This document shows positions 24,473 through 33,748 of a stretch of 64,000 nt of DNA, piece after piece. Positions within the stretch are counted from its first letter, which is position 1. Each line of letters opens with the position of its first letter. The position numbers and the translations under genes are program-made. The DNA comes from Tistrella mobilis. Lineage in GTDB: Bacteria; Pseudomonadota; Alphaproteobacteria; Tistrellales; Tistrellaceae. The notes beneath the pieces were generated by a model. That model did not search any database. It worked only from the letters and a program-made list of their open reading frames with translations, and had not been told where the DNA came from. The stretch covers positions 682,001 through 746,000 of the forward strand of contig NZ_CP121017.1 of NCBI RefSeq assembly GCF_041468085.1, read 5' to 3'.

Positions 24473-24703
24473 ACACGCGCTAGGATGGGGCTTGGGACAC
24501 GACCAGACGTGCCGCCGGCAATGACCGGAACACCCGACTCCGGCTGCACGCCATCCGCACCAGCGACGACCGATCCCCCTTCCGCCGGAGATTGCGGCCC
24601 GATATGCCGGGCGTTGACGGCCCGGCCATGTCCGGCGGGCCATGCCATGCCCGGGCAGGATCGCCCCGACCGCATCCCGGCGCCCCGGAGCGGAGACGCC
24701 TTC

Positions 24704-25780
24704 ATGTCCGAGATTTCAACCCATCCGGGTGCCCCGCCGCATCCGTCCTGCCATCTGCCGGCTCCCGATCAGCCGGCACGGCTTTGGCTCGCCGTCTGGC
24801 CGTCGGCGGCCGACGGGATCCGTGATCCACGCGATGCCGGCCTTGCCATCGCCGAGGCCGCCCGGATCCTGGCCCGGGATACCCGGGTTGCCATGCTTGC
24901 CCGTGCCGGCGACCTTGCCGATGCCTCGATGCGCTGCGGCGCCGGTGTAGGGGTGTCGTCCTGGGAGGGAAGCCTTGCCTGTTTCGCCGACCGGCGCCCA
25001 TCGATGGGGCGAACCGCCGATGGTGCGCCCTGTGCGGTGGAATGGCCGGTCGACCGCAGCCACCACCATGACGACTGCGATGTCGCCGGCCGTCTGCTTG
25101 CACTTGCCGGTGACGGGACCGTGGGCCGGGTGATCGTCGATATCGACGGCCGCGCCGGCATGGTCGCGGCCGATGGCGGCGGGGTGCTGGTGGCCAGCGA
25201 TGCGCTGCTCGGCGGGCAGGAAGCCGCGCGCGAAGCCATGGCTGCCCGCCTGGCCGCGACCTTCGGGGCCGGGCAGGTGGTCTGGGTACCGGGCGGTCTG
25301 GCCGATGACGAACGCCCCGGCAATCTGGACGGCGTGGTCCGCTTCCTGGCGCCGGGTGTGGTGGCCGTGGCCGTGGCGGCCGAGGGTGACCCCGATCATG
25401 CCGTTCTGGCCGAGACCCGGCGCCGGCTGGAGGTGGTGACACTGGCCGACGGCATGCCGATGAGCGTCGTGCCGGTGCCTCTGCCGAAGCGCCGGCCGCG
25501 GGACGAGGCCGGGCGGCTGCTGCCCGCAAGCTATCTGAGCCTGCTGCGCGACGGCCGCCGGCTGGTGGTGCCGGGCTTCGAGGACGGCAATGACGCCGCG
25601 GCGCTCAAAGCCTTGTCCCGTGCCCTGCCCACTGCCGCGATCGAACAGGTGCCCTGCCCGGCGCTTGCCCCCTTCGGCGGCTTTGCCCGCCTGGCCGTGG
25701 CCCTGCCGCAACCCGCCCCGACGTCCCGGGCTGACGATGCAGGCCTGATCGAGACCGCCTCTGCCGACGACCTCCGTTGA
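24704..25780 (+). CDS. Agmatine-deiminase-family protein lacking catalytic residues (probable pseudoenzyme)
   Basis: The 358-aa chain follows the Porphyromonas-type arginine/agmatine deiminase fold over nearly its whole length: LWLAVWPS near the start, ADGGGVLVASDALL, VVWVPGGLADDE, RFLAPG, SYLSLLRDGRRLVVPGF and ALSRALP. The catalytic positions are changed. The family GHVD reads GNLD (Asn207 for His), and the C-terminal GGxHC nucleophile motif reads GGFAR (Ala328, Arg329 for His, Cys). The N-terminal RDxGP motif is also absent. GGAG lies 8 nt before ATG 24704. The frame is intact and the length normal, so this looks like a retained non-catalytic protein, not decay. Its function is unknown. Confidence 0.72.
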   Translation: MSEISTHPGAPPHPSCHLPAPDQPARLWLAVWPSAADGIRDPRDAGLAIAEAARILARDTRVAMLARAGDLADASMRCGAGVGVSSWEGSLACFADRRPSMGRTADGAPCAVEWPVDRSHHHDDCDVAGRLLALAGDGTVGRVIVDIDGRAGMVAADGGGVLVASDALLGGQEAAREAMAARLAATFGAGQVVWVPGGLADDERPGNLDGVVRFLAPGVVAVAVAAEGDPDHAVLAETRRRLEVVTLADGMPMSVVPVPLPKRRPRDEAGRLLPASYLSLLRDGRRLVVPGFEDGNDAAALKALSRALPTAAIEQVPCPALAPFGGFARLAVALPQPAPTSRADDAGLIETASADDLR

Positions 25781-25805: not shown

Positions 25806-27167
25806 TCAGAATTTCAGCCGGGCCTGCAGGCTGACGATATCGATGCTGCTTTCGACATCGGCACGCACATTGACCTGGCCGGTACCGCCGATCCCCGGCT
25901 CGATCAGGTCGATCCGGGTGTCGTCGACGAAGATATGGGCATAGGCCATGTCGACGCCGATCCACTCCGAGATTTCCCAGCTGGCCCCCGCCGCCAGCCA
26001 CAGCCGGTCGGCATCGGGGGTACGGGTGGTGCGGTATTCATCCACCGTGGGCGTCTGGTCCCACTGCATGCCGCCGCGCAGCGTCCAGGCCGGATCCAGC
26101 CGGTATTCGGCGCCCAGGCTGACGCCCCAGCTGTCTTCGTAGTTCTGGGTCTTCACCGAATCCGGCAGGCCATTGGAGAACTGCACCCGGATCTCGTCGA
26201 ACCGGCTCCATTCATAGAAGTTCACCTGGCCGAGCAGCGTCAGCCGGTCGGTGACGTCCACCGCCACCGCGGCCGAGGCCACGGCCGGCAGGTCGAGCGC
26301 CGCCTGACCGTCGGAGCGGAAATTGGCGGCGGCCAGCGGGCCGGTGAGATCGGAGAGTGAAGCCGTGCCTTTGAGGTCGTGGGAAATGGCCGAGCGGTAG
26401 TGCAGGCCGATTCGCGCCTCGGGCACGGGCGTGAAGATCACACCCAGATTATAGCCGACGCTCCAGTCATCACCCTCGACCCGGGCATGGCCGTCGGTGG
26501 CCGGGTTGGGCCCGCCGGGGGTGAGCCCGTTGGCGACCGCGTTCTCCAGCGTCGCTTCGGCATACTGGATGTCGAGGCCGCCGCCCACCGACAGCCAGTC
26601 GCTGGCCTTGAAGGCGATGCTGGGGGCGATGTCGATGGTTTTGAGTTCGGTTTTGGTCGAATCATAGCGGCCGAACCAGTCGTCGCCGTAATCGGCGACC
26701 AGGCCGAAGGGGGCCGAGATGCCCACACCCAGCCAGACCCGGTTGTCGTCGTCCACCGGCATAGCGGCGTAGAAATTCGGCACCGGCGTGGTGTCGAAGG
26801 GGTCGCCATTGGCGCCGCCATAGCGCACCGCGGCACCGCCGGTGCCGAGGGTGGTGGCGGTGGAGCCGGCATCGGTCAGATCCGCTTTCAGGATCAGCAC
26901 ATGGCCGCCCAGCTGGACCTGACGGCCGTCGAGCCGGGTCATGCCCGCGGGGTTGCTGAAGATGGTAGAGGCGTCGGAGCCGAGTGCGGCTTCACCGGCG
27001 AAGGCGCGACCGACGCCCTTGACGCTCTGTTCCTGGATGAAGAAGCCGGCGGCGGCGGCGGGGCCGGCGGCGAGCAGGGCCGCCGCAAGCGCAGGCAGGC
27101 CGAGGAGGGTCGGCAGGCTGGCCGCGGCGGCGCGGCCCGGATGACGTCTGGGCGGACGGGCGTGCAT
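25806..27167 (-). CDS. fadL: FadL/OmpP1/TodX-family outer-membrane transporter
   Basis: A 453-aa outer-membrane barrel for hydrophobic compounds such as long-chain fatty acids. A cleavable N-terminal signal is followed by mature AGFFIQEQSVKGVGRAFAGE and ASTIFSNPAGMTRL, the N-terminal hatch motif of FadL. The C-terminus ends in a beta-strand with terminal Phe (VSLQARLKF), the outer-membrane insertion signal. The ATG at 27167 has GGGGAAA upstream; a TTG at 27182 is less likely. A LiuR-like palindrome about 125 bp upstream suggests coregulation with acyl-CoA catabolism. Confidence 0.92.
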   Translation of the reverse strand: MHARPPRRHPGRAAAASLPTLLGLPALAAALLAAGPAAAAGFFIQEQSVKGVGRAFAGEAALGSDASTIFSNPAGMTRLDGRQVQLGGHVLILKADLTDAGSTATTLGTGGAAVRYGGANGDPFDTTPVPNFYAAMPVDDDNRVWLGVGISAPFGLVADYGDDWFGRYDSTKTELKTIDIAPSIAFKASDWLSVGGGLDIQYAEATLENAVANGLTPGGPNPATDGHARVEGDDWSVGYNLGVIFTPVPEARIGLHYRSAISHDLKGTASLSDLTGPLAAANFRSDGQAALDLPAVASAAVAVDVTDRLTLLGQVNFYEWSRFDEIRVQFSNGLPDSVKTQNYEDSWGVSLGAEYRLDPAWTLRGGMQWDQTPTVDEYRTTRTPDADRLWLAAGASWEISEWIGVDMAYAHIFVDDTRIDLIEPGIGGTGQVNVRADVESSIDIVSLQARLKF

Positions 27168-27493
27168 CGGACGTTTCCCCAATAAGATTCTTTTGATCCG
27201 GAAAGATTCCCTTTCAGGATGTGTCTTTGGTATCCAAAGCGGGCATACGGCCCGGATTGAATTCCCTCTGACGACTCGATGGTTAAGTAACGTTTACGTT
27301 AACGTCAATTGCAGAAAGCACTGCCCATCGATCAATAGGGGAATTATGTCCAGGATTGGAAACCCTCTGTTGCGAAAACGCCACGGCGCCGCAGCCTTGT
27401 CACAAGGGCTTCGGTTGCGGCGAGAGGCCGGCGCCGGATAGGCTGAAGGGATCATATGCCCCGGATTTCAGATGCCGCTGACGGAGTTCCGAC
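27168..27493. promoter_or_regulatory. AT-rich divergent regulatory gap between fadL and aguB
   Basis: This 326-bp stretch is less GC-rich than its surroundings and holds no gene I can support. Its main feature is the ACGT-containing palindrome at 27293-27308. The rest contains AT-rich tracts (27180-27240 and 27330-27370) that probably hold the promoters for fadL (minus) and the amidase gene (plus), without clear hexamers. Confidence 0.5.
27293..27308. promoter_or_regulatory. LiuR-like palindrome TTTACGTT-AACGTCAA
   Basis: A 16-bp palindrome with one mismatched pair, centred on GTTAAC. From memory it resembles the ACGT-N-ACGT motif described for LiuR, the MerR-type regulator of branched-chain amino acid breakdown in proteobacteria. 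It is 126 bp upstream of fadL and 186 bp upstream of the amidase gene. I saw no copy in front of the leucine operon and no MerR gene in this window. Confidence 0.5.
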
Positions 27494-28375
27494 ATGACCG
27501 ACGGCCTGCTGACGGTTGCCGCCCTGCAGATGGAGGTATCCGACGACCGTGACCGGAATCTCGACCGGGTCGAGGAGATGATCCGCACGGCCGCTGCCGC
27601 CGGTGCCCGGCTGGTGCTGCCGCAGGAACTGTTCGAACTGCCCTATTTCTGCAAGGACCAGGACCCCGCCTGGTTCGATACGGCGCGGCCCTATGAAGGC
27701 AACCCGGCGATCGCCCGGCTGTCGGCGCTGGCCGCGGAACTGGGCGTGGTGATCCCGGTCAGCTTCTTTGAACGTGCCGGCCAGGCGTTCTTCAACAGCC
27801 TGGCGATGATCGATGCCGACGGGCGGGTGCTGGGTCTCTATCGCAAGAGCCATATTCCCGACGGGCCCGGCTATCAGGAAAAATTCTACTTCTCCCCCGG
27901 CGATACCGGCTTCAAGGTGTTCGACACGAAGGTCGGGCGGATCGGCGCTGCCATCTGCTGGGACCAGTGGTTCCCCGAAGCGGCGCGGACAATGGCGCTG
28001 GCCGGTGCCGAGCTGCTGCTCTACCCGACGGCCATCGGATCGGAACCGCAGGCGCCCGACTGGGACAGCCGCGACCATTGGCGGCGGGTGATGCAGGGCC
28101 ATGCCGGCGCCAATATCGTGCCGGTGATCGCCGCCAACCGGGTGGGGACCGAGGCGGGGCGCGATGCGACGCTCACCTTCTACGGATCCAGCTTCGTCGC
28201 CGACCCGACCGGTGCGATCCTTGCCGAAGCCGGGCGCAGCGGCGATGCAGTGGTGATGGCAGAGATCGATCTGGCGATGGCGCGCCGGCTGAGAGCCTCG
28301 TGGGGGCTGTTCCGTGACCGCCGGCCGGATCTTTACGGCGCTGTTGCAACACTTGATGGCGGGATCCGCCGCTGA
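27494..28375 (+). CDS. aguB: N-carbamoylputrescine amidase
   Basis: A 293-aa nitrilase-superfamily enzyme that hydrolyses N-carbamoylputrescine to putrescine, CO2 and ammonia. The Glu-Lys-Cys triad is visible: Glu in LVLPQELFELPYF, Lys in YRKSHIPDGPGYQEKFYF, Cys in AAICWDQWFPEAAR. These flanking sequences are specific for the AguB subgroup. All catalytic residues are intact, unlike the neighbouring AguA-like protein, with fadL between them. The next gene, eipB, follows after 126 bp. Confidence 0.93.
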   Translation: MTDGLLTVAALQMEVSDDRDRNLDRVEEMIRTAAAAGARLVLPQELFELPYFCKDQDPAWFDTARPYEGNPAIARLSALAAELGVVIPVSFFERAGQAFFNSLAMIDADGRVLGLYRKSHIPDGPGYQEKFYFSPGDTGFKVFDTKVGRIGAAICWDQWFPEAARTMALAGAELLLYPTAIGSEPQAPDWDSRDHWRRVMQGHAGANIVPVIAANRVGTEAGRDATLTFYGSSFVADPTGAILAEAGRSGDAVVMAEIDLAMARRLRASWGLFRDRRPDLYGAVATLDGGIRR

Positions 28376-28501: not shown

Positions 28502-29413
28502 ATGCCTCTGCCCAGCCGTTCCGCCGCCGCCCGTCATCTCGTGATGCCGCGTCTGATCGCAGCCCGGGGGCGGTTCCGGATCGGGCAAGGGGTCCTGGGG
28601 GGCATGGTGGTGGCCGGAGCCGTCCTGGCGTTGATGCCTGCGGCCCTGGCGGCGCCCCATTCGGTGCCGCACCGCGCGCATTACGCGATGAGCCTGCTTA
28701 AAGCCGAGCCCGATGCCGCGATCACCGGCGTTGCGGGCGATATGGCCGTGATCTTCGACCGGGCCTGCGACGGCTGGTCGGTGCTGCAGGCCAGCCGGAT
28801 GGAGATCGATTTCGACGAGGCCGAACCGGTCGTCTCGGACATCCTGTTCGATTCCGAGGAGTCCGACGATGGCACACGCTTTCGCTTTCGTTACGAAGAG
28901 CGGGAAAACGGCGAGAGCGTCGAACTGGCCATCGCCCATCTCGATCGTGGGTCACCGGATCGACCTTCGAAACTTCGTTTTGCCAATCCGCCGGGCGTGA
29001 CCGAAAACGTGCCGGCCGGTGCCCTGCTGCCGACGGCCCATACCGAGCGGCTGCTTCAGGCGGCGGAGGCGGGGGACGCGTTCCTGCGGGCCCAGGTTCT
29101 GACCGGGTCGGGCCAGGACAGCCTGTCCTTCGTGAGTGCCCATATCGGGCGGCCGGCGGAGATCGCACCCGACCAGGACTGGCCGGCACAGGCCGGTGAG
29201 GCGGCGGACGCGCTGCGCACGGCGACCGTCATTCCCATGCGGCTGGCCTTCTTCAAGCCGGACGACCAGTCCGAGACACCGATCTACGAACTTCTTTACC
29301 AGATCCAGCCGAACGGAGTCGTCCGGCGATTCGATATAGATTATGGTGAATTTGCGATATCTGCTCGTCTCGTCTCGGTAGAAAACCGACCGGCGGCGGA
29401 GTCGTGCGACTGA
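28502..29413 (+). CDS. eipB: EipB/DUF1849-family periplasmic envelope-integrity protein
   Basis: A 303-aa protein with a long N-terminal region ending in a hydrophobic signal (GVLGGMVVAGAVLALMPAAL, then ALAAP). The mature part starts HSVPHRAHYAMSLL, as in the DUF1849 family. The two cysteines expected for the family's single disulfide are present (RACDGW near residue 90 and ESCD at the end). In Brucella the EipB protein forms a periplasmic beta-spiral needed for envelope integrity. GGAG lies 10 nt before ATG 28502. A thioesterase gene follows 44 bp later. Confidence 0.82.
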   Translation: MPLPSRSAAARHLVMPRLIAARGRFRIGQGVLGGMVVAGAVLALMPAALAAPHSVPHRAHYAMSLLKAEPDAAITGVAGDMAVIFDRACDGWSVLQASRMEIDFDEAEPVVSDILFDSEESDDGTRFRFRYEERENGESVELAIAHLDRGSPDRPSKLRFANPPGVTENVPAGALLPTAHTERLLQAAEAGDAFLRAQVLTGSGQDSLSFVSAHIGRPAEIAPDQDWPAQAGEAADALRTATVIPMRLAFFKPDDQSETPIYELLYQIQPNGVVRRFDIDYGEFAISARLVSVENRPAAESCD

Positions 29414-29899: not shown

Positions 29900-31222
29900 T
29901 CAACCGGATGCGGCGCCGAACAGATCCGGCGCAGCGGGGTCACCCTCCCGGTTGCGGACGGGCTGCGCGCCCAGCCCGATCAGCCTGAAGGCGGTATGGC
30001 CGGTCGCCTCGGCGGTGAGCAGATCCTGCGCCGCGGCGATCAGGGGAGCCGATTGATCTGTCGGCACTTTCAGCCGACGGCTGCGGGTGAGGGTCTGGAA
30101 ATCGGCGGTTTTCAGCTTCAACACCACGCCTTCGGCCACCAGACGGCTGCCGGCCAGACGGGCTGCCACCCGTTCGGCCAGCGGCGGGAGCAATTCGGCC
30201 AGGCGATCGGCGGCGCGTTCATCGCGGGCCAGGGTGGTTTCGGCCGATACGCTTTTGGCCGGGCGTGACGGCGTGACCCGACGCGGGTCGCGCCCGCTGG
30301 CAAAGCCTGCGATCTGGGCGCCGATCCGGCCATAGCGGCGGGCCAGCGCCTGCGGCCCCAGCGACTGCAGCTGGCCGATCCGGGTGATGCCGTCGGTGGC
30401 CAGCCGGCGTTCGAAGGCCGGGCCCACCCCCCACAGCATGCGCACCGGCTTGTCGGCCAGGAAGGCGGTGGCTTCGGCTGCGCCGATCACCGCGAAGCCA
30501 CGCGGCTTGTCCAGTTCCGATGCCAGCTTGGCCAGGAATTTGTTGGGGCCGAGCCCGACCGAGACCGTGACCCCCACCTCGCGCTCCACCCGCCGGGCCA
30601 GGGCGGCGAGGCGCTGGGCGGGGCTGGCCCGGCTGTCGGGCGCCCCAGATTCCGGCCCCAGATCCAGATAGGCCTCGTCGATCGACAGCGGTTCGACCAG
30701 CGGGGTAAGGGCGCGCATCAGCCGGCGGATCTTAAGCCCTGCCTCGCGATAGCGCGCCATGTCGGGCGGCAGCACCACCGCATCCGGGCACAGCTCGCGC
30801 GCCTTGAACATCGGCATGGCCGAGCGAACGCCTTTCATCCGGGCCAGATAGCAACAGGTGGAGACGACACCGCGATGACCACCGCCCACGATCACCGGCC
30901 GTTGTGCCAGTTCGGGCCGGTCGCGCTTTTCGACCGAGGCATAGAAGGCATCGCAATCGACATGGGCAATTGTCAGCCGGTGCAGTTCGGCATGGATCAC
31001 GATCCGCGTCGAACCACAGGCCGGGCAGCGCCGGCTGTCGTCTTCAGCCGCGCGGGTGGATCCGCAATCGCGGCACAGCCATCCCGCGGCCGATGCAGGC
31101 GTGCAGCCTGCGGGCGGGGAGATGACGGGCGGGGAGGCCTGATCTGTGCCGCCGTCATCGGCGGCAGGGGCTGCGGACATGGATTGTGGAACTCGCCAGG
31201 AACGGCCGGATGTTCCGGTCAT
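29900..31222 (-). CDS. dinB: DNA polymerase IV (Y family) with N-terminal zinc ribbon
   Basis: A 440-aa translesion polymerase. The N-terminal addition has a CxxC...CxxC zinc ribbon (CRDCGS and CPACGS) ahead of the catalytic palm (IAHVDCDAFYASVEKRDRPE, SIDEAYLDLG, both with catalytic acids). Fingers/thumb follow, with the HhH-like region FLAKLASELDKPRGFAV and the little-finger domain. The zinc-ribbon form is familiar from alphaproteobacteria. The start may instead be the ATG at 31180. The ISAs1 element ends 46 bp upstream and now separates dinB from the ROK kinase gene. Confidence 0.92.
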   Translation of the reverse strand: MTGTSGRSWRVPQSMSAAPAADDGGTDQASPPVISPPAGCTPASAAGWLCRDCGSTRAAEDDSRRCPACGSTRIVIHAELHRLTIAHVDCDAFYASVEKRDRPELAQRPVIVGGGHRGVVSTCCYLARMKGVRSAMPMFKARELCPDAVVLPPDMARYREAGLKIRRLMRALTPLVEPLSIDEAYLDLGPESGAPDSRASPAQRLAALARRVEREVGVTVSVGLGPNKFLAKLASELDKPRGFAVIGAAEATAFLADKPVRMLWGVGPAFERRLATDGITRIGQLQSLGPQALARRYGRIGAQIAGFASGRDPRRVTPSRPAKSVSAETTLARDERAADRLAELLPPLAERVAARLAGSRLVAEGVVLKLKTADFQTLTRSRRLKVPTDQSAPLIAAAQDLLTAEATGHTAFRLIGLGAQPVRNREGDPAAPDLFGAASG

Positions 31223-31268: not shown

Positions 31269-32467
31269 CAGGGCTATCGCATTTGCCCGATGACGGATCG
31301 GGCGAATGCGTCGGACCATCCGGATCGCTTTCGCTTGCGACGGATGGAGATGGTTGGCCTGGCAGTTTTGAGGACGTTGAGGGCGAGTTTTCGGATGATG
31401 GCGAGGTTTTCCGGGCCGTGGTCCTTGCGAGCGCGGGCCTCGTCCTCGCGGAAGGTGGTGTCGAGAACCCAGTGCAGGCCGTTCTCGATGGCCCAGTGGC
31501 CGCGGACGGCCTTGGCGAAGGCGGCGGCGGACAAGCGGGCGGAGGAGAGGTAATAGCGGGTAGATGTGCTTGTCTTTCCGTCCCGCTCGACGGTGGCGAC
31601 GACCCGGGCGATGGTGGCGAGCGCCGGCATGGCAGGCCGGTCGGGGTCCCGCTTTTCCGGGAACAGCCAGTCGACGTCATGAACCACCTCGTGCCGACGG
31701 ATCTCCAGACGGCCGTGGTCTGCGTCGGTGGTTTGCAGCGTCTCGGCCGGCGCCGTCGCCGGATCGGCGAACCAGGTCTCGACGTCGGCAAGGGTGGCGG
31801 GGCGGTTTTTCTTCAGCGCGAAGAGGTAGTCGCCGCCGCGCTCCAGCACGAGGCGCGCCGTCTCGCCCTGGCAGTGGATCGCGTCAGCGGTGACGAGCAT
31901 GCCCTTCAGATCGATGATGGCGAGGAGGGCGCGGGCGGCGGTGATCTCGTTGCCGCCCTCTGGAACCGCCGCCTGGCCGAGCACCAGCCCGGCCTCGCCG
32001 GCAAAGGCGCTCACCACGTGCAGCGCGCTCTTACCCGCAGCCCGGTCAAACGAACGCCGGAGCGTTTTGCCATCAATGGCGATTACGCCGGGACCATCGG
32101 CTCCGAGATCGTCGAGGAACTGTGAGAAGCACGCCGACAACGCTGCGGGATCGATCAGGCGGAACAGCCGCGAGAACGTGTCATGGCTTGGCAAGCCGTT
32201 GGGAAGGCTGAGAAACTCCCGGAAGAGCTCCTCGCGGTCCTCTGCGAAGTCGGCAAAATCGACGCAGCTCTCGCAGCCGCAGATCGAAGCCGTCAGCGCG
32301 ATCACCAGGAGGTCCAGAAGCTCATGGCGTCTCGCGTTACCCGTGCGCGGGTCGGGCACCTGGCGCAGGATGGTGATCAGAGATGGCATCGGTTCCTCCT
32401 TGGAACCGAATAAAGAATCCATCTCTGACCATTCCGCTACCCGGGATTTTCAAATGCGATTCCCCTG
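31269..32467 (-). mobile_element. ISAs1-family insertion sequence, complete
   Basis: A 1199-bp element bounded by imperfect terminal inverted repeats. The left end is CAGGGCTATCGCATTTG (31269-31285); the right end, read inward on the minus strand, is CAGGGGAATCGCATTTG. They match at 15 of 17 positions. It contains one full-length transposase gene and is flanked by a perfect 10-bp target duplication. It lies between the 3' end of the ROK gene and the 5' end of dinB, so no coding region is broken. Confidence 0.95.
31274..32389 (-). CDS. ISAs1-family transposase
   Basis: A 371-aa DDE-type transposase. The N-terminal region has LITILRQVPDPRTGNARRHE and LLDLLVIALTASICGCES. The catalytic core has VIAIDGKTLRRSFD (first Asp), VTADAIHCQ (second Asp) and HWAIENGLHWVLDTTFREDE (Glu), all standard for ISAs1. 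The ATG at 32389 has AGGAGG 5 nt upstream and is preferred over ATG 32422. The stop codon lies inside the left terminal repeat. The frame is intact, so the element may be active. Confidence 0.95.
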   Translation of the reverse strand: MPSLITILRQVPDPRTGNARRHELLDLLVIALTASICGCESCVDFADFAEDREELFREFLSLPNGLPSHDTFSRLFRLIDPAALSACFSQFLDDLGADGPGVIAIDGKTLRRSFDRAAGKSALHVVSAFAGEAGLVLGQAAVPEGGNEITAARALLAIIDLKGMLVTADAIHCQGETARLVLERGGDYLFALKKNRPATLADVETWFADPATAPAETLQTTDADHGRLEIRRHEVVHDVDWLFPEKRDPDRPAMPALATIARVVATVERDGKTSTSTRYYLSSARLSAAAFAKAVRGHWAIENGLHWVLDTTFREDEARARKDHGPENLAIIRKLALNVLKTARPTISIRRKRKRSGWSDAFARSVIGQMR

Positions 32468-32488: not shown

Positions 32489-33514
32489 TCAGGGGGTGTC
32501 CCACAGTCGGGCGGCGCCGCGCACGCCGCTGTCGTCGCCATGGCGTGCAATGCGTATCGGCGTGCGCATCCGGTCGGAAAACAGCCAGGGCGCGACCAGG
32601 GGCTCGGGATCCGCCACCAGCGCCGGCACCTGCGACAGGCCGCCGCCCAGCACGATCACATCGGGATCCAGGATGTTGACGATCATGGCCAGCGCCCGGC
32701 CGAAGCGGTGACGCCAGCGGGCGACAGCGGCGACGGCCCAGGGCGTACCGGTATCAGCCGCGGCCAGAACGGCCTCTGCGCTGCGTTCCCGGGCCGCAGC
32801 ATCGTCATCCAGGCCGCGCAGCCGGGCGGCATCCCGGGCGAGGCCGGGACCCGACAGCAGCGTCTCGATACAGCCGGTCCGGCCGCAATAGCAGGCAGGC
32901 CCCGGCAGTTCGGGCAGCTCTGCGGCATGCGGCGGCGGGATCTCGCCCGGTGCCCGGCTCCAGGGTTGTGCCCAGGGCATCGGGGTATGGCCCCATTCGC
33001 CGGCGATGGCATCGGCGCCGTCATGCACATGGCCGCCGATGGCGATACCGCCGCCGATGCCCGTGCCCAGGATCGCGGCGAAGACCAGATGGGAGCCGGC
33101 CGCCGCACCGTCGACTGCCTCGGACACGGCAAGACAGTTGGCGTCGTTGGCAAGTCGTATGGCCCTACCCGTGCGCGCCGTGAGGTCGCGGTCGAGCGGT
33201 CGCCCGTTCAGCCAGGTGGAGTTGGCGTTCTTCACCAGACCCGTTTTGGGGCTGATGGCGCCGGGCATGCCGATGCCCAGCGGCAGGCGCTCCGTCACCC
33301 CGGCCGCCTGTTCGGCACGGGTGGCAATCTCGTCGATGGTCCGTATCGTGGCATCATAGTCGCCGCGCGGCGTCGGCATGCGCAAATGTGCAAGTGTTCG
33401 TCCCGTTGCCCGTTCGATGGCGACTGCCGCGATCTTCGTGCCGCCCAGATCGATGCCGACGAGCACCCGGGACTGCATGCGGGAGCCATCATCTGCGGCA
33501 GCCGGGTCCAACAT
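32489..33514 (-). CDS. ROK-family sugar kinase (fructokinase/glucokinase-like)
   Basis: This 341-aa ROK kinase has the ATP-binding LVGIDLGGTKIAAVAIE, the catalytic-loop region IRLANDANCLAVSEA, ILGTGIGGGIAI, GEWGH and the zinc-binding CYCGRTGCIETLLSGPGL. The segment GMPGAISPKTGLVKNANSTW is typical of the fructokinase/Mak group. The ATG at 33514 has AGGAGG about 10 nt upstream; the frame extends further but without family support. The exact sugar is inferred. The IS insertion 11-20 bp after its stop cuts any readthrough into dinB. Confidence 0.88.
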   Translation of the reverse strand: MLDPAAADDGSRMQSRVLVGIDLGGTKIAAVAIERATGRTLAHLRMPTPRGDYDATIRTIDEIATRAEQAAGVTERLPLGIGMPGAISPKTGLVKNANSTWLNGRPLDRDLTARTGRAIRLANDANCLAVSEAVDGAAAGSHLVFAAILGTGIGGGIAIGGHVHDGADAIAGEWGHTPMPWAQPWSRAPGEIPPPHAAELPELPGPACYCGRTGCIETLLSGPGLARDAARLRGLDDDAAARERSAEAVLAAADTGTPWAVAAVARWRHRFGRALAMIVNILDPDVIVLGGGLSQVPALVADPEPLVAPWLFSDRMRTPIRIARHGDDSGVRGAARLWDTP

Positions 33515-33748
33515 GTGTGGTCGTCCTCCTCCTGTTTGACCGGGCCGTGGATATGATCGGAAACGGCCCACCGGGCACGCATGATGTTGCACCGCTTGAC
33601 GGATGGCCACAAAATGATTGCTGCGGTCATCGGAACCGGGCATCGTGCGCCGGTACGAGGCGAACCGCCGGTCGCGGGCCGTTCGACGTGAGGTCGGGCC
33701 GCTGCGGCGACCGAGGGGACCTCCTGATGGCGCGGGGCGGAATTGGCT

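Follow-up and report, generated by a model that had tools for sequence, protein, structure and literature searches.

The window analysed here is a 64,000-nucleotide stretch of the Tistrella mobilis genome. On its forward strand, an open reading frame at 24704–25780 encodes pseudo-AguA, a predicted catalytically dead protein of the agmatine-deiminase fold, identified by its PF04371 match, predicted model, PDB match and dN/dS. The frame starts with ATG, and a GGAG ribosome-binding site, read directly from the sequence at 24692–24695 (+), lies eight bases 5' of the start codon, in agreement with an earlier note on this DNA that had described an intact frame at exactly these positions with a good ribosome site. 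The region 5' of the gene gave no Rfam match to a riboswitch, guanidine or other, and no promoter or terminator consensus was found at the gene.

The agmatine-deiminase fold, recognised in the earlier note from the translation, is borne out by both profile and structure. PF04371 (PAD_porph) matches pseudo-AguA with 109 bits against a curated cut-off of 25 bits, covering residues 24–326 and profile positions 8–311 of 321. The AlphaFold model, built on a 68-sequence alignment, has a mean pLDDT of 86.8 and a pTM of 0.87, and its best PDB match in Foldseek is the Enterococcus faecalis agmatine deiminase (2jer_D; TM 0.79, E 2.9e-21), which places the predicted structure in the pentein fold. The agmatine deiminase equivalog model TIGR03380 gives 68.3 bits, below its cut-off of 381.8 bits; some intact short-type AguA orthologs also score slightly under this cut-off (365 and 329).

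The aguA neighbourhood and the second AguA

Downstream of pseudo-aguA lies a FadL/OmpP1 outer-membrane transporter gene on the opposite strand (25806–27182, −; PF03349, 335 bits), followed by the gene of an intact N-carbamoylputrescine amidase, AguB (27494–28375, +). The latter matches TIGR03381 with 461 bits, above the cut-off of 410, and corresponds to the working enzyme that had been noted 1.7 kb away. Further along are an EipB-like gene (28502–29413, +; PF08904, 233 bits), a DinB-type polymerase gene (29900–31222, −; PF00817/PF11799) and a ROK-family kinase gene (32489–33643, −; PF00480), all three of which belong by synteny to a conserved ancestral aguA neighbourhood. An insertion sequence (31274–32422, −), with a DDE_Tnp_1 transposase and a DDE_Tnp_1_assoc domain, sits between dinB and the ROK gene and breaks a gene order conserved in other families.

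In genomes of family f5, a short-type aguA is followed by aguB and eipB, with dinB and the ROK gene on the opposite strand (locus L072), and portions of this order recur in families f10, f34, f116, f121, f126 and f155. The Tistrella locus has the f5 order and orientations, with the addition of the opposite-strand fadL between pseudo-aguA and aguB; fadL was not detected beside the other aguA loci compared. (In neighbouring loci, the labels RidA, GDPD, GNAT, HIT, AspS and Pot were assigned by sequence reading and not by profile match.) Since the locus is the ancestral aguA-aguB-eipB-dinB-ROK block, the link between pseudo-aguA and aguB is more than chance, and pseudo-aguA is therefore best read as the ancestral alphaproteobacterial short-type aguA, a positional ortholog inactivated in place.

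A second, intact aguA, whose presence the earlier note had proposed to check, does exist in the genome (G000:C4:1971498-1972559; TIGR03380, 505.7 bits). It belongs to the long-type subfamily and is located about 1.26 Mb from pseudo-aguA in a genome of 6.3 Mb. Pseudo-AguA scores 115 bits against the best short-type sequence and 32 bits against this long-type Tistrella AguA. Intact AguA and AguB accompany pseudo-AguA in all three Tistrella species (G000, G001 and G002). Meanwhile, neither TIGR01273 nor PF01276 detected an arginine decarboxylase in these three genomes, despite their intact AguA and AguB; the Tistrella pair may therefore have a catabolic role, or another enzyme may supply the agmatine.

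Catalytic positions and retention of pseudo-AguA

Residues were mapped in the 68-sequence alignment, anchored on the invariant Pro337 and offering 66 other rows for comparison, with residue roles taken from the comparison of PPAD and AgDI (PMC4487231). The nucleophilic cysteine (AgDI C357) is occupied by Ala331 (25694–25696, +), where 52/66 other rows have Cys and the remainder are other altered homologues, and the residue before it, normally His, is Leu330. The catalytic histidine (AgDI H218) is Asn207, in a GNLD motif that stands in place of GHVD (25319–25330, +) and keeps Asp209, and the catalytic-triad asparagine (AgDI N306; Asn in 56/66 other rows) is Ser279 (25538–25540, +). All three residues C357, H218 and N306 of AgDI are thus represented by others: A331, N207 and S279. 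Furthermore, the channel tryptophan (AgDI W93; Trp in 64/66 other rows) is Cys93, in a CFAD motif that replaces WxRD (24980–24991, +) and retains the guanidinium-binding Asp96, which is Asp in 66/66 other rows. The EGG motif has Arg150 (25151–25153, +) in place of its Glu, which all 66 other rows have, and the aspartate at the amine end (Asp89 in MtAIH, PMC6447857) is Leu91. In the alignment, both guanidinium-binding aspartates are kept, D96 and D209 corresponding to AgDI D96 and D220. The segment following the FNxWG position, corresponding to the lid region of the plant enzyme's active site, is shortened and rebuilt as PVDRSHHHDDCD; it contains the stretch HHHDDCD (residues 120–126; 25061–25081, +), found in Tistrella only.

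In PPAD, the single mutants C351A/S, H236A/N and N297A have their activity abolished, and D130 and D238, the counterparts of D96 and D209 in pseudo-AguA, form salt bridges with the guanidinium group (PMC4487231). Since single changes equivalent to those in pseudo-AguA abolish activity in PPAD, loss of deiminase activity may safely be inferred from the alignment. The earlier note's list of replacements needs amendment at several points. Its claim that all catalytic positions are replaced stands for Cys, His, Asn, Trp and Glu, but not for Asp96 and Asp209; the change of GHVD to GNLD is seen in the alignment as described, whereas GGFAR is not the equivalent of GGxHC, the Pro337-anchored alignment pairing the nucleophile with Ala331 instead of Arg. 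RDxGP, given as missing, is present as ADRRP with its aspartate D96 kept, and the changes of Trp93 to Cys, of the EGG Glu to Arg150 and of the triad Asn to Ser279 come in addition to those listed. As for a Cys/His pair placed correctly elsewhere in the chain, no cysteine of pseudo-AguA aligns with the nucleophile; C93, however, occupies the channel Trp position, where it might serve an unrelated chemistry. Compared with AguA/AgDI (TIGR03380; 2jer, 3h7k, 6nib), pseudo-AguA shares the five-bladed pentein fold along almost its entire length, the ancestral position beside aguB and the two guanidinium-binding aspartates, but has other residues for the Cys, the His, the Asn of the triad, the Trp of the channel and the Glu of EGG, and scores 68 bits with TIGR03380 against the cut-off of 382.

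The same catalytic losses occur in all three Tistrella species, in which pseudo-AguA has a fixed length of 358 residues and an identity of 92–99%. The closest named match, from Tistrella mobilis KA081020-065, is 92% identical in protein sequence, and the changes are not those of a single strain, a possibility that the earlier note had named as fatal to the pseudoenzyme idea. By the Nei–Gojobori method, the dN/dS of pseudo-aguA is 0.096 (G000–G002) and 0.047 (G001–G002), against 0.13–0.18 for intact AguA and 0.05–0.15 for neighbouring genes in the same species; the two most distant species differ by about 0.5 synonymous changes per site. At the protein level, the three species differ at 31 positions, none of them in residues 62–137 or 269–339, which nonetheless carry many synonymous changes and cover most segments of the former channel; the contrast between segments (3/31 vs 29/103) gives a Fisher p of 0.025 with segments chosen post hoc. 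Pseudo-AguA is under purifying selection after catalytic loss. With the frame intact in three species, a dN/dS of 0.05–0.10 and the triad positions lost, the earlier view of a pseudoenzyme that is retained and not decaying holds, and that pseudo-AguA is both dead and retained is well supported.

Inactivated AguA copies in other Alphaproteobacteria

The survey sampled 385 genomes of Alphaproteobacteria and took in two families completely; 100 PF04371 loci were extracted from the class survey. The genome of Caulobacter vibrioides also has a PF04371 match. Outside Tistrella, losses of catalytic residues are found in f37, f67, f10 (genus g10), f116, f82 and f34/f125, and one f15 genome has a single D-to-N change in AguA. 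In f37, 15/17 genomes carry a Cys-less AguA (one of them a fragment) and two carry an intact copy. In f67, AguA is altered in 12/14 cases, mostly to Gln/Asn with the Cys kept. Within this family (loci L183–L196), a graded series extends from intact AguA, through Gln/Asn with Cys kept, to the change of Cys to Ser, and constitutes natural steps toward a dead enzyme.

The losses differ from lineage to lineage: Cys is replaced by S, A, R or H, His by Q, R or L, and Asp by E, N, G or S, and the second Asp is often lost in lineages other than Tistrella. Parsimony requires 5–7 changes to dead AguA, and a tree uniting all dead AguA in one clade is rejected (p-AU 0.005); dead copies thus appear to have arisen in about 5–7 lineages, with a single origin rejected on the sequence tree. 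The dN/dS values of the other inactivated lineages (0.04–0.17) overlap those of intact orthologs (0.04–0.21). In several families, the dead copies lie at the eipB-dinB-ROK locus, like the intact copies of related genomes; those of f37 adjoin what reads as aspS, as do intact copies in f29, f71, f76, f112, f147 and f155. The other dead AguA proteins therefore resemble pseudo-AguA in their short-type fold, in the catalytic positions hit, often in their locus and, wherever measurable, in purifying selection, but each lineage has its own combination of residues, and Tistrella is the most diverged.

The earlier note had looked to a clade that shares the replacements and has aguB or fadL close by. 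No such clade was found outside Tistrella: a contig search for the exact replacements gave only T. mobilis, class-wide matches are 30–35% identical, and the other lineages lost different combinations. The LPQP end and the N-to-S change that Tistrella has in common with the dead group of f37 had suggested a kinship; the resemblance was treated as convergence, because several dead lineages have LP-type endings and the tree gives Tistrella no defined place. The stem branch of the Tistrella protein measures about 3 changes per site, a length that leaves its placement in the tree unsettled.

In most dead-only genomes, intact AguA and AguB are both missing. Where the canonical AguA is intact, AguB scores above its cut-off in 49/66 genomes; among dead-only genomes, it does so in 3/13 (Fisher p 0.0008, with phylogeny ignored). 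Catalytic loss of AguA accompanies pathway loss; in Tistrella, by contrast, the pathway is kept and served by another AguA. The majority of dead-only genomes have no intact paralog, which led to rejection of the idea that a dead copy depends on one.

Three f37 loci (L197, L198 and L199, in G339, G262 and G038, respectively) place AguB beside genes resembling a Pot-type spermidine/putrescine ABC transporter, and G262 and G339 have this transporter-adjacent AguB without an intact agmatine deiminase. In addition, several genomes have, beside other PF04371 copies, members of a divergent subfamily whose end motif is GGGVRCMSW and whose Cys is kept (L027, L114, L158 and L159; about 90–111 bits). In f121 (L075 and L087), short-type AguA keeps every catalytic residue in genomes without AguB, and the substrate of short-type AguA may accordingly not always be agmatine.

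A proposed non-catalytic role for a former deiminase

Set beside its positional orthology, its lost catalytic residues, its selective retention and the parallel losses elsewhere, all of them observed, pseudo-AguA has about an even chance of being an aguA inactivated in place that now has a non-catalytic role in binding or regulation. The ancestral alphaproteobacterial aguA-aguB-eipB block would have contained a short-type aguA. In Tistrella, the long-type AguA from the other locus would carry out the deiminase step, and the short-type copy at the old locus would have lost its triad while purifying selection kept the fold. Its former channel keeps the two aspartates that grip the guanidinium group but has lost the triad, the Trp of the channel and the Asp at the amine end. 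On the simplest reading, pseudo-AguA would bind but not turn over a guanidinium or amine ligand, which may be agmatine or a relative, and the effect of the ligand would be relayed through contact with a protein partner. Against ligand binding, the retained aspartates may be structural, D96 being invariant in all rows. The pocket may not bind agmatine, because the EGG Glu and the lid segment have changed, and guanidinium binding cannot be the common function of all dead AguA, because other lineages often lose the second Asp. A role confined to polyamine metabolism, along the lines suggested by the earlier note, is made doubtful by the presence of AguB in only 3/13 dead-only genomes. Among open-licence papers, none relevant to an agmatine deiminase pseudoenzyme or moonlighting role was found.

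An unlikely explanation that nonetheless has a precedent is a prozyme-like subunit, in which pseudo-AguA would hetero-oligomerise with intact AguA, or with AguB, and set its activity. Dead paralogs activate two trypanosome polyamine-pathway enzymes (PMC3663545, PMC6221367), several bacterial agmatine deiminases are dimers or tetramers (PMC6447857), and the candidate partners coexist with pseudo-AguA in every Tistrella species compared. The trypanosome prozymes, dead paralogs of AdoMetDC and deoxyhypusine synthase, are likewise dead polyamine-pathway homologues selected beside an active one. However, they bind and activate their own paralog, whereas the active Tistrella AguA is of the other subfamily and scores only about 32 bits against pseudo-AguA. 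Co-transcription is unlikely, with the opposite-strand fadL standing between pseudo-aguA and aguB and the intact aguA about 1.26 Mb away. Inactivated AguA orthologs also occur without an active partner, and a general prozyme role fits poorly, because most dead-only genomes have nothing left to activate. Decay of a redundant copy, merely unbroken so far beside intact AguA, is highly improbable: the long stem branch to Tistrella would suit such a relic, but a low dN/dS (near 0.1) after inactivation contradicts decay, as do the intact frame and the fixed length maintained over the synonymous divergence of the most distant pair.

Quite unlikely, too, is a channel rebuilt for another reaction or for metal binding, with HHHDDCD at its mouth and Cys93 beside Asp96. 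The position of HHHDDCD in the altered lid segment, the Cys at the channel Trp position and the absence of amino-acid change in residues 62–137 among Tistrella species are consistent with it, but no family model supports another activity, and the HHHDDCD stretch is confined to Tistrella, its conservation being judged over three close species. Similarly improbable is a scaffold or complex-associated structural protein without a small-molecule ligand. Its model is PAD6 (PADI6) of the oocyte, an inactive guanidine-modifying member of the same superfamily kept for a non-enzymatic role as a structural component of cytoplasmic lattices (PMC12732937). The recurrent dead orthologs keep different pocket residues, which favours surface over pocket; in Tistrella, however, the most conserved segments line the former channel (p=0.025, with self-chosen segments). 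PAD6 also belongs to the vertebrate calcium-dependent PAD lineage and is inactive through lost Ca sites and a misplaced Cys. We know of no bacterial counterpart of its structural lattice role.

Beyond Tistrella, there is a tentative wider proposal, which we hold somewhat less probable than not: that AguA in Alphaproteobacteria has a second, non-catalytic function separable from polyamine synthesis. When the deiminase step becomes dispensable, through loss of the pathway or provision of another AguA, catalysis would erode and the protein would be kept, giving rise to about 5–7 parallel pseudo-agmatine-deiminases with Tistrella as the most extreme. The pattern of AguB loss fits a protein whose non-catalytic function outlasts its catalytic one.

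Selectively maintained dead enzymes have received much study in eukaryotes and have more rarely been followed in the metabolism of bacteria. In the present family, catalytic residues have been lost repeatedly, often at the same chromosomal locus, with the protein still under selection, and such repeated silencing with retention suggests a second, non-enzymatic job for AguA. The natural series of intact, partly altered (e.g., Gln/Asn with Cys kept) and fully dead proteins offers a basis for searching for this hidden second function. Meanwhile, alphaproteobacterial lookalikes of agmatine deiminase are often not expected to catalyse the step, which affects pathway reconstructions.
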